Shown: positions 34,038-38,942 of the stretch, in pieces
Layout: the number at the start of each line of letters is the position of its first letter
Position numbering within the stretch: position 1 is the stretch's first letter
From: Methanosphaera stadtmanae
GTDB taxonomy: Archaea > Methanobacteriota > Methanobacteria > Methanobacteriales > Methanobacteriaceae
Reading direction: 5' to 3'
Assembly (NCBI GenBank): GCA_015062805.1
Contig: SUTQ01000016.1
Span: 1-55,798, forward strand
Length of the DNA: 55,798 bases
Notes under the pieces: generated by a model
What the model saw: the letters and a program-made list of their open reading frames with translations, nothing else
Databases searched by the model: none
What the model was told of the DNA's origin: nothing
Made by a program: the position numbers and the translations under genes

Positions 34038-35726
34038 TCACGTATAGATAATATTGTCAGAATCAAAGATATCATTAGATAGTTCATCTTTTATGGAAGA
34101 TTGCAGGTTATCAGATACCTGTTTATCCAATATTTCTATATTGGGATACCACGTTACATTACCAGTACTGCTGGATGTATCCCTTTGTATAGTATCCTTG
34201 GATATTGACTGATATACCTCCTGAACTGCCTTGCCGATTATCTGGGAAAATGTTCTTGCAGGTACTGCCTTTGAGAATCCTGCATTATGCAATTCCTTCC
34301 ATTCATCAGGAGTGGTGATTAACCAACCATTTTGTGCAAATAATGGTTCTATTTTATCGAATATTTGACGTGTATATGTTTTTGAACCTTCCACTTCACA
34401 GGTGTTTTCATTTAACCATTCCACGATAATATTTTTGATTCTGTTTTCGCGTTCTTCATTTATATTGATAAATTTTAGTTTAGAATAGAATTCGTTACCC
34501 TTAATGCTGGTGTTTTTAATATCCTTGAAACTTAGTGTAGGATTATGTTTGTTATACCAACTGTACAAATAACTTTCCATACGATTAGATAATAATTTCA
34601 TGTCAATATCAATATCCTGACTATCAATGTCCTTATTAATTTTTGCAGTAATTTCTTCAATAGTAACAGTATCATGAATATTTCTGGAGATTTTAAGATT
34701 ATGATTGAACCAATTATACACAAATTCCTTAATATCCCTGTAATTTACTTCATCAATTACAACTTGCATTTTATTACTTCCCCTATTGTCACTCATAATA
34801 TTTTCATCTTTATCCTTACACACGTTTGAAATAGATTTGCAGTTTTCGGCATTTTCATCCAGTTTTTCCATTATTTCATCAAATTTATCCTCTATTGCAA
34901 CTAGTTTTTCATCCTGTTTAGCCAAATTTGTATTGAGTGAGTCCTTAATTAACGCAATTTCATTGAAATATGTGTTAAATTCCTGATATTTCCTGTTTGA
35001 TGCTTTGATTTTTTGATGAATCTTAGCCATTTTATTAGATAACTGATTATGCTTATTGGATAGACTATCCTCAAGGATGTCCTGTTTTTCATTGATTTCT
35101 TTAATTTCCCTTGAATAAGCATCATTTGGAATTCTTTCATCAAGATGTTCAATCAGTCTAACTGCTATTTCATCAATTATCCTATCAGTAAATTTAAAAT
35201 CTTCATCTTTTACCATTTGAATCTCCTTAATATCCTCATTTAATTCAATACTACTAGACCTTTTCTGTATGTACTGTCTAATCTTTCTTTTGTCAAATTT
35301 CTTTTTTCCATAGTCATTAAGCATAGAATTTGTGATACAAAGACTTTCAACAGATAATTCCTTCTTAACATCACCCATATCAATATCTAAAAGTATATTT
35401 TCTATATCTTCTACCGTCAATTCTTGGTTATGATTATTTGTCAAGAGTAATCCATCGATTTTACAGTAGTTGTTCAATGAATGCTCCAACAAATGATTGT
35501 AAAGCAATGAATTTTGTGGTTCTACTCTAAAGAAATCATAACCTACCTTTACCAAGTCCTGTACTGGAAATCTTCTGCATAGTAGTATCAGTATGAGAAT
35601 CTGCTGATTTAGATTCTTTTTAGTGTTGAAGTCCCTTGTACGTTCATACTTTTTGCAGAGATTGTTGTATATTTCTTTTAAATCCTTATCATTCAATTTA
35701 TTTACATGTTTGAGGGGATTTACCAT
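34038..35726 (-). CDS. Hypothetical coiled-coil protein of hsd-like operon (gene 3), 562 aa
   Basis: GGAGGTAAC 3 bases before the ATG at 35726 sets the start. The N-terminal 180 residues are helical, residues about 210-310 form a long coiled coil (NEKQDILEDSLSNKHNQLSN and later heptads), and the C-terminal half contains repeated modules starting IKEFVYNWFNHNL and IKNIIVEWLNENT, each followed by polar helices. No ATPase, nuclease or helicase motif is visible, so it does not replace HsdR. A structural or DNA-bridging subunit is possible. The gap to the HsdM-like gene is 20 bp. Confidence 0.65.
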   Translation of the reverse strand: MVNPLKHVNKLNDKDLKEIYNNLCKKYERTRDFNTKKNLNQQILILILLCRRFPVQDLVKVGYDFFRVEPQNSLLYNHLLEHSLNNYCKIDGLLLTNNHNQELTVEDIENILLDIDMGDVKKELSVESLCITNSMLNDYGKKKFDKRKIRQYIQKRSSSIELNEDIKEIQMVKDEDFKFTDRIIDEIAVRLIEHLDERIPNDAYSREIKEINEKQDILEDSLSNKHNQLSNKMAKIHQKIKASNRKYQEFNTYFNEIALIKDSLNTNLAKQDEKLVAIEDKFDEIMEKLDENAENCKSISNVCKDKDENIMSDNRGSNKMQVVIDEVNYRDIKEFVYNWFNHNLKISRNIHDTVTIEEITAKINKDIDSQDIDIDMKLLSNRMESYLYSWYNKHNPTLSFKDIKNTSIKGNEFYSKLKFININEERENRIKNIIVEWLNENTCEVEGSKTYTRQIFDKIEPLFAQNGWLITTPDEWKELHNAGFSKAVPARTFSQIIGKAVQEVYQSISKDTIQRDTSSSTGNVTWYPNIEILDKQVSDNLQSSIKDELSNDIFDSDNIIYT

Positions 35727-35746
35727 TGTTACCTCCATAATTAATG

Positions 35747-37042
35747 TTACCTTTTTTGCAACATAGCTTCTATTTCTTGATCCAATTCTTTTATCCTATC
35801 AGAACATTTTTTCTGTTTGTTCAGTATATCCTCAATGGATTGTTTCTCATAATCCAATGTGTAAACATAACGTTTTGGATTGAGATTATAATCATTTTTG
35901 ATAATTTCATCCTTATCTATTATATTACTGAATTTTGGGATTATTTCCCTATTTTCATAGCTTTTGAAAATACTCTGTTCTTCAGATGGCAATAATAGTC
36001 CCGGTAATAAATGTTTAGGCTTAATAAAGAGGAAATCTTCGCTTTCCTTATTCTTATTTAGAATTAGAATAATTATATCACGACTTCTGAAACCTGAATC
36101 ATAATCTATTACCACATCCAGGAGATTATTTTCAATTAAGCATTGTCTTAATTGTTGTGCATCACTTTTTACCAGTAAATCCTGCGTAGTTGTTGTTACA
36201 ATTATACCATTGTCATCCATATGTTCTATTAGGTTAAGCAGATGAATTGAATTTGAACTTTTGGTTATGTATTTGTCGTATTTTTTGATTTTAGTCTTAT
36301 CATTTCTTTTCAATCGTTTTTCAAATGGTACTGAGACGATTGTATCGTATTTTTTACTATCCTCATCTATGAGAATTTCCTTCTTATATAGTGAAACTTT
36401 ATCCGATGATATTCCATTGATTAAAAGATTCTGCTTTGCATGTATATAATCGGCATCATTTTTCAAATACAATGTAGCATGATCAAAATGTTCCAGAGCC
36501 GTGACAGTTTGTGCATCCATAGATGAAGGATCATAAAATTCTTTGACTTCATGATTGATAGTGGCTAGTTTGGACAACAAATCAATGGTGGGTGGAATAA
36601 TCCTATCTACAGCATTATCATATGTTTCTTGATTATAATTTACTAACTTGAATAACTCAGTTAAATTATCATCATATTCTATGATATCCATAATGTCATT
36701 CAAATTATTCTTAGTAATCTTTTCATCATCTACTCTGGAAAATATTTCCTTAATGTCCTGATTTTTACTGTTTTTTAGAACATTCAAAGCACTTTTAACA
36801 TCAGATAAACAGGAATCCTCATTCTTATCGTATTTTTTAATGATATTGGTTAAGAGTTCATAGTCACGGAAAGTAAATCCATACTCCTTCTGAAATTCAT
36901 CCAAATTATCATTGAGTTCTTCCTGTTTTTGTGCCAAGAATTTCATTGTTAAAAAAGGAATTACATCTACCTCTGAACCTATTCTGCTGAAATTTCTACG
37001 AAGATCTTTTCTTCTACTTCTATGACGAATGTTAATTTTCAT
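35747..37042 (-). CDS. HsdM-like protein lacking methyltransferase catalytic motifs, 431 aa
   Basis: Order and spacing of segments follow the type I modification subunit HsdM, but the SAM-binding motif, normally DPxCGSGG, reads DPSSMDAQ (residues 171-178), and the catalytic NPPF reads SVPF (237-240). The later parts are retained: GIIVTTTTQDLL for the usual VVLP segment, CLIENNLLDVVIDY, FRSRDIIILILNKNK and a coiled C-terminus. It is therefore probably an inactive structural homologue. GGTGAT 4 bases before the ATG at 37042 sets the start, giving an 11-bp overlap with the hsdS-like gene. Assignment rests on motif order, not on a profile search. Confidence 0.7.
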   Translation of the reverse strand: MKINIRHRSRRKDLRRNFSRIGSEVDVIPFLTMKFLAQKQEELNDNLDEFQKEYGFTFRDYELLTNIIKKYDKNEDSCLSDVKSALNVLKNSKNQDIKEIFSRVDDEKITKNNLNDIMDIIEYDDNLTELFKLVNYNQETYDNAVDRIIPPTIDLLSKLATINHEVKEFYDPSSMDAQTVTALEHFDHATLYLKNDADYIHAKQNLLINGISSDKVSLYKKEILIDEDSKKYDTIVSVPFEKRLKRNDKTKIKKYDKYITKSSNSIHLLNLIEHMDDNGIIVTTTTQDLLVKSDAQQLRQCLIENNLLDVVIDYDSGFRSRDIIILILNKNKESEDFLFIKPKHLLPGLLLPSEEQSIFKSYENREIIPKFSNIIDKDEIIKNDYNLNPKRYVYTLDYEKQSIEDILNKQKKCSDRIKELDQEIEAMLQKR

Positions 37043-37622
37043 ATGTATCACCAATAATATCATCATACAATGAATTGATGAGTTTTTCATCACATTCAAT
37101 TGATTTGTTCTTAAGTTCAATCCTTTCATTTACTTTTTTAATTATTGTCGCTTGTTTATCCTGTTCTTCCTTTTCAGGCAATAATATTTTTAAGTCTTTA
37201 AGTATTCTTGTACTTACCTTCATAATCCTTGTTGAATCTATGGTTCTTTGAATTTCATAATCTACTCTAGGATCATTGAGATAATAAGTTAAGAAAGTTG
37301 AATTGACTATTGAACTATCTACCCGTATAATATTATAATTGTTTGAAATGATTGCTCCCTTTTCTGTAGTAATCTCCTTTGCGAAACTTGGTTGCTGAAC
37401 CTTATATAATATATCATGTTCCTGTGAATAAAATCGTTCCTTGATATCTTCAGATATTTCCTCTTCTTCAGTTTCAAACTTTTTTCCGATCATAAAGAAG
37501 GGCATAGTTTTAATAACCTTCTGTTTGATGGAATCTTCCTTGTTGACATATCTCTGTAAAGGTAAACCTGTTATTACAGTTGCTATATCTTCCAATTTAT
37601 ATTCTTTAGTTTTCAAATACAT
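37032..37622 (-). CDS. Type I restriction specificity (HsdS)-like subunit, half size, 196 aa
   Basis: EYKLEDIATVITGLPL is the usual beginning of an HsdS target-recognition domain, and ISTRILKDLKILLPEKEEQDKQATIIKKVNERI is the conserved helical spacer that follows it. Only one recognition domain is present (full HsdS has two, about 400 residues), so it would have to dimerise to bind a bipartite site. GGAGGT lies 4 bases before the ATG. First gene of a four-gene operon with an inactive-looking HsdM and no HsdR. It may act as a sequence-specific DNA-binding module rather than in restriction. Confidence 0.8.
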   Translation of the reverse strand: MYLKTKEYKLEDIATVITGLPLQRYVNKEDSIKQKVIKTMPFFMIGKKFETEEEEISEDIKERFYSQEHDILYKVQQPSFAKEITTEKGAIISNNYNIIRVDSSIVNSTFLTYYLNDPRVDYEIQRTIDSTRIMKVSTRILKDLKILLPEKEEQDKQATIIKKVNERIELKNKSIECDEKLINSLYDDIIGDTYEN

Positions 37623-37886: not shown

Positions 37887-38028
37887 CTTTGTCTAAAGTG
37901 TATATTACACGACGAAAATGTATGTAACATTTACATACATAAATCGTGTTGGTATGATAGAAAACAACTATCACATCATCAGTATAATGATTACCTATAA
38001 AGAATATATAAGCACTGGGGGTGTTAGA

Positions 38029-38198
38029 ATGTAATAAATAAATGAATTATTATATATCATTTTTTTTATTACCTTTTTAATTTGAGTGTAGTTTTACTAG
38101 GGACATATTTATCCAGGCCGTAAATCCAGGGCAAATGAAGGTTGAATATGAAATATATTTTTTTTATAATACTGGATAAAAAAATAGGAGGAATCAAA
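38029..38198 (+). repeat. Leader unit 1 (170 nt)
   Basis: ATG-TAA at 38029, a U8 run at 38060-38067, ACCTTTT at 38071, a hairpin CATATTTATCC/GGTTGAATATG (38104-38114 with 38140-38150, 10 of 11 paired including one G-U), U8 at 38158-38165 and AGGAGG at 38186. All elements except the first U8 recur in the same order and at similar distances in unit 2. Confidence 0.5.
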
Positions 38199-38366
38199 AT
38201 GTAAAAAAAATAAATAACTAGAAATATCTATAATTATGGAACACCTTTTGTTTTTTTTTAAGTGGGTCTTACTGACATTAAGGGAACACGACATTCTAAT
38301 CAAACATCAAGATTGGAGTGTTGTGTATAATTTTTTTTAATCACCAATTATAATGGAGGCAAAATA
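38199..38366 (+). repeat. Leader unit 2 (168 nt)
   Basis: ATG-TAA at 38199, ACCTTTT at 38243 followed by a U9 run, the 16-bp hairpin at 38286-38326, U8 at 38331-38338 and GGAGG at 38355-38359, which serves the first DUF1874 gene. Base identity to unit 1 is limited (for example ACCTTTT...GTG...TTACT...GGGA-CA), so the duplication, if real, is old. Confidence 0.5.
38286..38338 (+). terminator. 16-bp RNA hairpin with U8, just before DUF1874 gene 1
   Basis: ACACGACATTCTAATC pairs over all 16 positions with GATTGGAGTGTTGTGT around a 9-nt loop, using three G-U pairs that form only in plus-strand RNA; ATAA and eight U follow. The G-U pairs point to selection on the RNA rather than on DNA symmetry. 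It ends 28 bp before the first DUF1874 ATG and should limit read-through into it. Confidence 0.7.
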
Positions 38367-38642
38367 ATGAAATATATATCAAATGCATTTAGTCCGAAAA
38401 TGTTAAATCCATATACAAATCCAACATTTACAATTGGACCAACAACATTTGAGGAAATACAAAGTGTAAAAAACGAACTTATTAGTTCAATTGGTCATCA
38501 AAATACTGCTGATCATGTGAACATGGAGAAAAATAGAATGAACATTCAACTTGAAATAAATGATATATTATATCTAGTCATTTCTCAAAAAAATGAATGT
38601 AACGAAATTGAATACAACTATAAAAAAATTATTATGAAATAG
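38367..38642 (+). CDS. DUF1874 protein, AcrIII-1/Crn2-type ring nuclease homologue, 91 aa
   Basis: Matches the STIV B116/DUF1874 fold by motif: SNAFSPKML at the start, ISSIGHQNTADHV (His44) in the middle and KNRMNIQLEINDILYLVISQ at the end. In the studied members (SIRV1 gp29, AcrIII-1) the histidine of this IGH motif drives cleavage of cyclic tetra-adenylate, which switches off type III CRISPR effectors; related Crn2 proteins are encoded in CRISPR loci. GGAGG lies 7 bases before the ATG. It stands behind the structured leader and forms an operon with the paralogue 12 bp downstream. No CRISPR gene is in the window, so a viral or mobile origin is plausible. Confidence 0.75.
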   Translation: MKYISNAFSPKMLNPYTNPTFTIGPTTFEEIQSVKNELISSIGHQNTADHVNMEKNRMNIQLEINDILYLVISQKNECNEIEYNYKKIIMK

Positions 38643-38654
38643 GAGGAGAATAAT

Positions 38655-38942
38655 ATGATATACGTAACTGATAATTTTTCAGCACAAATGTTTCCAAATG
38701 AAGAATTAATAGTAAATACCAGAACAATAAAAAAAAGTAAATTCCTAAAAAATACAAAGGATGCTGTAAGTTCAATAAGTTCCAGAAGAATAGCTAAACT
38801 ATTACATAAACCCGTCAAAAAAGAAGAATTTCAACTTACACATGGGGATATAATCTATGTAGTAACCAGCAAGTTCGGAAGAAATAAATCCGATTATAAA
38901 AAAGAAAATAAATTCAGATTCGAAGAATTTATAGTATCATAA
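38655..38942 (+). CDS. Divergent DUF1874-like paralogue lacking catalytic His, 95 aa
   Basis: The start (MIYVTDNFSAQMFPNEE) and the late strand (LTHGDIIYVVTSK) align with the preceding protein, but where that has SSIGHQNT this one has SSISSRRI, so the catalytic Gly-His pair is Ser-Ser. It may bind but not cut cyclic oligoadenylate, form a heterodimer with its neighbour, or have another role. It is strongly basic (many Lys and Arg). AGGAGGAG lies 7 bases before the ATG, and the 12-bp gap shows co-transcription. Confidence 0.6.
   Translation: MIYVTDNFSAQMFPNEELIVNTRTIKKSKFLKNTKDAVSSISSRRIAKLLHKPVKKEEFQLTHGDIIYVVTSKFGRNKSDYKKENKFRFEEFIVS

Follow-up and report, generated by a model that had tools for sequence, protein, structure and literature searches.

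The locus studied here raises the question of why a gut methanogen should carry, side by side, two genes of a ring nuclease family when the product of the second lacks the catalytic histidine. DUF1874 proteins are known so far as homodimers that cleave cA4, either in the service of type III CRISPR or to counter it. We analyzed a 55,798-nucleotide stretch of DNA from Methanosphaera stadtmanae (contig SUTQ01000016.1; "the window") and compared the locus across 20 genomes of the genus. The two genes, here called A and B, belong to a known fold family and possibly have a new role.

Two paralogues with divided active-site residues

Gene A (positions 38367 to 38642, forward strand) encodes 91 amino acids, with an IGH motif (H44) and an NR motif (R57) and without the GR(LxxE) loop. 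Gene B (38655 to 38942, forward strand) encodes 95 amino acids, with Ser43 at the histidine position and no equivalent of R57. The genes are in the same frame, and the 12 nt between them contain an SD-like GGAGGAG. An earlier note, made from the letters of the window, had quoted SSIGHQNT from A and SSISSRRI, NFSAQMF, and GDIIYVVTS from B, and all of these motifs are present as given. At the sequence level the two proteins are paralogues (BLASTP, 26% identity over 76 amino acids, E = 4e-6). A matches Pfam family PF08960 weakly but above threshold (26.3 bits; cut-off, 26) and phrog_5063 at 1.5e-8; its best PDB matches are the AcrIII-1 structures 2x4i and 6scf, and it is closest to the SIRV1 and STIV proteins. 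A Pfam search of B returned no match, and B is not a PF08960 member by sequence alone; its sole profile match is to phrog_5063 (E = 0.026).

The pair was modeled with AlphaFold as one chain by stop-codon read-through (TAG read as Q for the window, TAA as Q for G111). In the window model (mean pLDDT, 88.3), the A part matches 2j6b with a Z score of 11.4, and the B part matches the solved AcrIII-1 structure 6scf_A with a Z score of 12.9 over 90 residues and 2x4i_D with a Z score of 12.8. Both proteins are predicted to adopt the DUF1874 fold, and the possibility raised in the earlier note that the second protein might bear no resemblance to this fold is not borne out by the model. AcrIII-1 (SIRV1 gp29, 2x4i/6scf), AFV3-109, and STIV B116 share the fold of A and B (Z scores of 11 to 13), and the viral DUF1874 ring nucleases also have the NAFS, IGH, and NR motifs in common with A and fall in the same size class.

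In the crystal structure of AFV3-109, the contacts of His45 are with Arg64 in the same chain and with Glu86 in the partner chain, and Arg83 makes a contact across the dimer, so that the pocket is built across two chains (PMC1796864). The equivalents in SIRV1 gp29 are H47, R66, R85, and E88, a numbering taken from alignment that agrees with the H47A mutant (PMC7213978). Within this arrangement, A retains Gly-His at all 13 loci and Asn-Arg at 12 of 13 (G107 has T for R57), and the GR(LxxE) loop, with the Arg and Glu that would reach the opposite chain, is missing from all 13 copies. In B, the loss of the catalytic histidine that the earlier note had reported is universal (Ser in 13 of 13 proteins), and the equivalent of R57 (R64 in AFV3-109, R66 in SIRV1 gp29) is gone as well. 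B has just two histidines, H51 and H63, and neither is conserved across the B proteins, which argues against another histidine having taken over the active site, as that note had allowed. The catalytic histidine of AcrIII-1 and Crn2 is thus present in every A and in no B, and we do not file B as a ring nuclease because it lacks this general acid.

What B keeps is a strictly conserved C-terminal loop, (F)GRxxSxYxxxNxxR, in which G75, R76, Y81, and R88 are invariant in all 12 intact copies. It retains the lid arginine (R76), and the glutamate of the viral loop is replaced by Ser or Thr; of the equivalents of AFV3-109 R83 and E86, A has neither and B only the arginine. Whether the B GR falls on R85 of SIRV1 gp29 varies with the alignment (a one-residue shift is involved, and another alignment places it differently); the same GR lines up with the GGR in provirus-like copies.

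The two proteins seem to complement each other and do not look like one active and one dead copy; the plain reading of their sequences is a duplication followed by complementary loss. Because each pocket draws on both chains, an A:B dimer would keep one nearly complete pocket, whereas A2 and B2 would each miss half, and in view of the complementary losses, A and B most likely exist as an obligate heterodimer. Viral DUF1874 proteins, in contrast, are homodimers with all pocket residues on each chain, whereas here the residues are divided between paralogues, in hosts without detectable Cas10. Since the viral Glu is Ser or Thr in B, the composite pocket would not fully reproduce the viral pocket, and its chemistry or ligand may differ. 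The earlier note had read the genes as an active/inactive pair, suggesting a heterodimer, a cA4 sponge, or a paralogue with a new ligand. The pairing is indeed fixed and B indeed lacks the histidine, but A is not simply active, as its opposite-chain Arg/Glu loop is gone. The heterodimer and the new ligand were sensible suggestions, and the heterodimer is now the best supported, for a reason absent from that note, namely, that A is incomplete too. Two fused A-B models predicted the domains well and gave no confident interface (pTM, 0.55 and 0.48), a weak test given a linker of only 5 to 9 residues and only 4 paired rows.

Conservation and genomic neighborhood

Looking for the same gene pair elsewhere, as the earlier note had advised, we found the tandem at 13 loci in 11 of the 20 genus genomes; as a pair it is absent from the IMG/VR and INPHARED records searched, and no relatives of B were found in the IMG/VR or phage records searched. 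An Omnitrophica match (L003) was rejected as a homologue, being a chance match opposite a 782-aa ORF. B is frameshifted in one genome, G121 (L058, G121:C55, 7148 to 7440), a MAG in which this could be true decay or an assembly error. Order, strand, and short spacing are kept across loci except in G107, the most diverged pair, in which the genes lie 205 nt apart with an AbrB/SpoVT-like ORF of 61 aa between them (L065, G107:C18, 12206 to 12412).

In the tree, the A proteins form one clade (support, 98/94) and the B proteins another (98/95), with matching shapes, which points to a single duplication before their spread; distances within A and within B are correlated (Mantel r = 0.77, p = 2e-4). 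Pairwise dN/dS is well below 1 in both, with constraint on B no weaker, and both genes are under purifying selection. Recurrence at 13 loci together with low dN/dS indicates that the loss of the histidine in B is due neither to chance nor to decay, and A-B is being maintained as a pair and is not an active gene beside a dying copy. Undivided relatives exist. A protein on a viral contig (L075) has GH, NR, and GR in a single chain and is the sister of A (support, 89/81), and provirus-like proteins in G041 and G047 have GH, NR, and GGRLPE in a single chain.

Divergently from A, the window encodes HsdS', a single-TRD type I specificity subunit of 196 aa (37032 to 37622, reverse strand; PF01420, 31.6 bits; PADLOC Specificity_I, 3.6e-16), and HsdM', a type I methyltransferase-like protein (35747 to 37051, reverse strand; PF02384, 59 bits; PADLOC MTase_I match). 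Behind HsdM' lies a gene for a 566-aa protein with no Pfam family over the cut-off (34038 to 35738, reverse strand), and long ORFs resembling it occupy the equivalent position in G117, G116a, and G121. Although HsdS' and HsdM' match the Specificity_I and MTase_I profiles of type I restriction-modification with single-TRD HsdS, the unit differs from such systems in having no linked HsdR and in that HsdM' lacks NPPF and motif I, in the window and in eight relatives. In the window copy, SVPF replaces NPPF and motif I is not recognizable in the motif alignment, and this HsdM' is probably unable to methylate.

The association of A-B with HsdM/HsdS genes is real. The closest HsdM' profile matches (E < 1e-150) come only from eight pair-bearing genomes and G113, so that the window-type HsdM'/HsdS' unit occurs in nine genus genomes, eight of them with A-B. 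More broadly, 12 of the 13 loci have a single-TRD HsdS and an HsdM-like gene adjacent to A-B or nearby, and complete type I genes also follow at G116b, G125a, and G109. The one exception, G125b, has a TIR-domain gene (TIR_2) adjoining A-B, and its type I genes are a few kilobases off. The TIR-domain protein there (L062, G125:C61, 3716 to 4666; PF13676, 5e-22; best PADLOC match, bSEFIR) is encoded directly downstream of A-B, and an unrecognized 371-aa protein directly upstream. Single-TRD HsdS/HsdM units are, in general, common in the genus, which calls for caution in reading the association.

The linked HsdM lack a canonical NPPF in all but G109; their motif IV reads SVP[FY] or similar in the window-type clade, CPPF in G116b, and QPPF in G107, with none in G125a. 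Two simple generalizations had to be rejected. The pair-linked HsdM do not form one lineage, as outside the window-type clade they scatter among other HsdM; being of several lineages, they suggest that A-B came beside such units more than once. Nor is the loss of NPPF confined to pair-linked HsdM, as an SHPPF family without neighboring A-B is common in the genus (L121, 8373 to 9842; L140, L141, L142, L144, and L145), mostly beside single-TRD HsdS.

Candidate ligands

Searches for the Cas10 palm (PF22335) and Cmr2 found neither in any of the 20 genus genomes, with positive controls in known type III genomes; Csx1 likewise had no match in the 20, and Csm1 had two weak partial matches, in ORFs of ~300 aa and far below the cut-off. 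With no Cas10 detected in 20 genomes, A-B is unlikely to bind cA4 made by type III CRISPR in its own host, which weakens the earlier note's choice of cA4. A type III system too divergent for the models, or one on an uncaptured plasmid, could still be a source. Crn2, including the Csx1-Crn2 of Marinitoga (8y7f/8y7g), matches in fold and is likewise a cellular DUF1874 protein encoded beside defense genes; however, Crn2 is encoded in type III CRISPR loci, whereas the neighbors of A-B are type I restriction-modification-like genes. A CBASS-type cyclase was also considered and rejected: weak SMODS matches in 18 genomes are ORFs of ~460 aa, one per genome, which would fit archaeal CCA-adding enzymes, and the window genome has no SMODS match.

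Candidate functions

We propose that A and B could both descend, by one old duplication, from a virus-type DUF1874 ring nuclease and have split one two-chain active site between them. They would form an obligate heterodimer with a single working pocket, to which A would give the general-acid H44 and the neighboring R57 and B the arginine-bearing lid loop (R76...Y81...R88) reaching across the dimer interface; the mirror pocket, with the Ser of B opposite the shortened A loop, would be inactive. The heterodimer may serve as an accessory of the neighboring type I restriction-modification-like HsdM/HsdS units, binding a nucleotide other than resident type III cA4 and either cleaving it slowly or doing no more than sensing it. 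We favor this explanation tentatively; the chance that it is right in all its parts falls somewhat short of even. The basic charge of B beside a nearly neutral A also counts in its favor. What we infer is that A and B heterodimerize, that they bind a ligand, that they are linked to the methyltransferase unit, and that they affect the cell; the analysis itself shows paralogy, fold, conservation across the genus, complementary residue losses, co-inheritance, the neighborhood, and the lack of detectable Cas10. That A-B acts as a unit on a signal other than that of type III CRISPR is probable. A conserved, coevolving split-pocket pair in hosts without detectable Cas10 would mean that the fold has another ligand or job, which this small two-gene system would allow to be tested directly, and it would clearly exemplify the apparent change of a homodimeric enzyme into an obligate heteromer.

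A different role is suggested by the sequence between HsdS' and A, in which two successive leader elements are found at eight loci with a window-type pair and in G113 (nine loci). In the window, copy 1 (38013 to 38182, forward strand) contains the box GGGGGTGTTANNATSTAA, a hairpin, a T-run, and a pairing between loop and tail (ATCCAG, 38124 to 38129, with CTGGAT, 38172 to 38177); copy 2 (38183 to 38366, forward strand) contains an SD and ATGTAA followed by a long hairpin with a T-run, and ends directly before the start of A. At most of the nine loci, copy 1 opens with a GGGGGTGTTANNATSTAA-like box and copy 2 with an SD and then ATG-TAA, and each copy has a hairpin and a T-run. The hairpin loop of copy 1 pairs with a stretch beyond the T-run, and the sequences differ among species yet stay complementary (TGCTTCTAGT/ACTAGAAGCA, GCTTCCGG/TCGGAAGC, and ATCCAG/CTGGAT). 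This complementarity is significant over eight loci (Fisher p = 3e-9), a value that is optimistic because the arms were hand-picked from folds and the loci are related; the pairing in copy 2, also with arms hand-picked from folds, is weaker (Fisher p = 0.0017). The opening box, a pattern drawn from these same loci, occurs in 7 of the 20 genomes, once per genome and only at the A-B/leader locus. An Rfam search of the leader returned nothing credible. Genome G113 (L117, G113:C139, 7046 to 10000) has the window-type HsdM'/HsdS' and the leader and no DUF1874 pair. ORFs of ~40 to 55 aa precede the leader in L055, L056, L054, L058, and L117, some of them ending inside the GGGGGTG box.

The leader may control translation of A and B. 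With this locus-specific, duplicated, structured element directly upstream of A at eight pair loci, B, alone or together with A, could regulate by binding nucleic acids, with its own leader (RNA or DNA) as one possible target, or else as a partner of HsdM'/HsdS'. The charge of B would suit such a role (mean net charge, +10, compared with −1.8 for A, which is about neutral), as 11 B proteins of 12 carry a strong positive charge, and AFV3-109 is reported to bind dsDNA and to resemble viral DNA-binding modules (PMC1796864). However, the B of G109 is acidic (net charge, −7), strict conservation in B is concentrated on the ligand-lid loop, and no leader is present, judging from gene spacing, at the operon-internal loci G116b and G125a. 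We consider such a regulator unlikely. A wider synthesis would have the split-pocket pair and the leader belong to one genus-wide, Cas10-independent module. In it, two complementary, half-degenerate ring nucleases would together act as an asymmetric sensor or phosphodiesterase for nucleotides and be coupled to a non-methylating, DNA-recognizing HsdM'/HsdS', and the duplicated leader, as a pseudoknot RNA, would set its synthesis. Such a module, which we regard as speculative and rather improbable, would amount to a branch of second-messenger signaling joined to genes of the type I restriction-modification kind.

Homologues that lack the histidine bear on the sponge of the earlier note. DUF1874 homologues without GH and with the GGR/GGK/GGH lid kept occur in other Methanobacteriaceae (L069, L070, L067, L072, and L120), where L067/L070 and L069/L072/L120 form separate clades; L070 adjoins a Sak4-like phage gene. 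If B alone were a ligand-binding homodimer, a sponge or sensor that holds the same or a related nucleotide and does not cut it, with A as the enzyme, then the strong purifying selection on B would be accounted for, and several provirus-like copies from Methanobrevibacter, also without the histidine and with the lid kept, would be parallels. Binding need not depend on the histidine, since AcrIII-1 made catalytically inactive by H47A retains its affinity for cA4 (KD, ~25 nM; PMC7213978). The phage sponges Tad1, Tad2, and Acb2 can be set beside B by concept, as the only idea in common is a cyclic nucleotide bound uncut, and B has the predicted DUF1874 fold. A sponge or sensor leaves unexplained why A has lost exactly what B keeps; moreover, the R64/R66 equivalent is gone from B too, and no source of cA4 was found in the genus genomes. 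We think this explanation quite unlikely.

It is more doubtful still that A-B is an ordinary mobile anti-CRISPR, with A an active AcrIII-1 homodimer directed against type III CRISPR and B an accessory. The best matches of A to SIRV1 and STIV proteins, its catalytic histidine at 13 of 13 loci, and the mostly viral distribution of AcrIII-1 (PMC12409355) all speak for it. The target, however, is missing from view, as neither Cas10 nor Csx1 was detected in the 20 genus genomes, A lacks the opposite-chain Arg and Glu, and A-B lies on chromosomal contigs beside restriction-modification-type genes and, as a pair, was not found in IMG/VR or INPHARED records. Finally, a functionless leftover of a viral gene, for which one could cite the frameshifted B of G121 and the persistence of HsdM'/HsdS' and the leader without A-B in G113, is scarcely credible, being largely refuted by 12 intact pairs, low dN/dS, matching trees, and strict conservation of residues.
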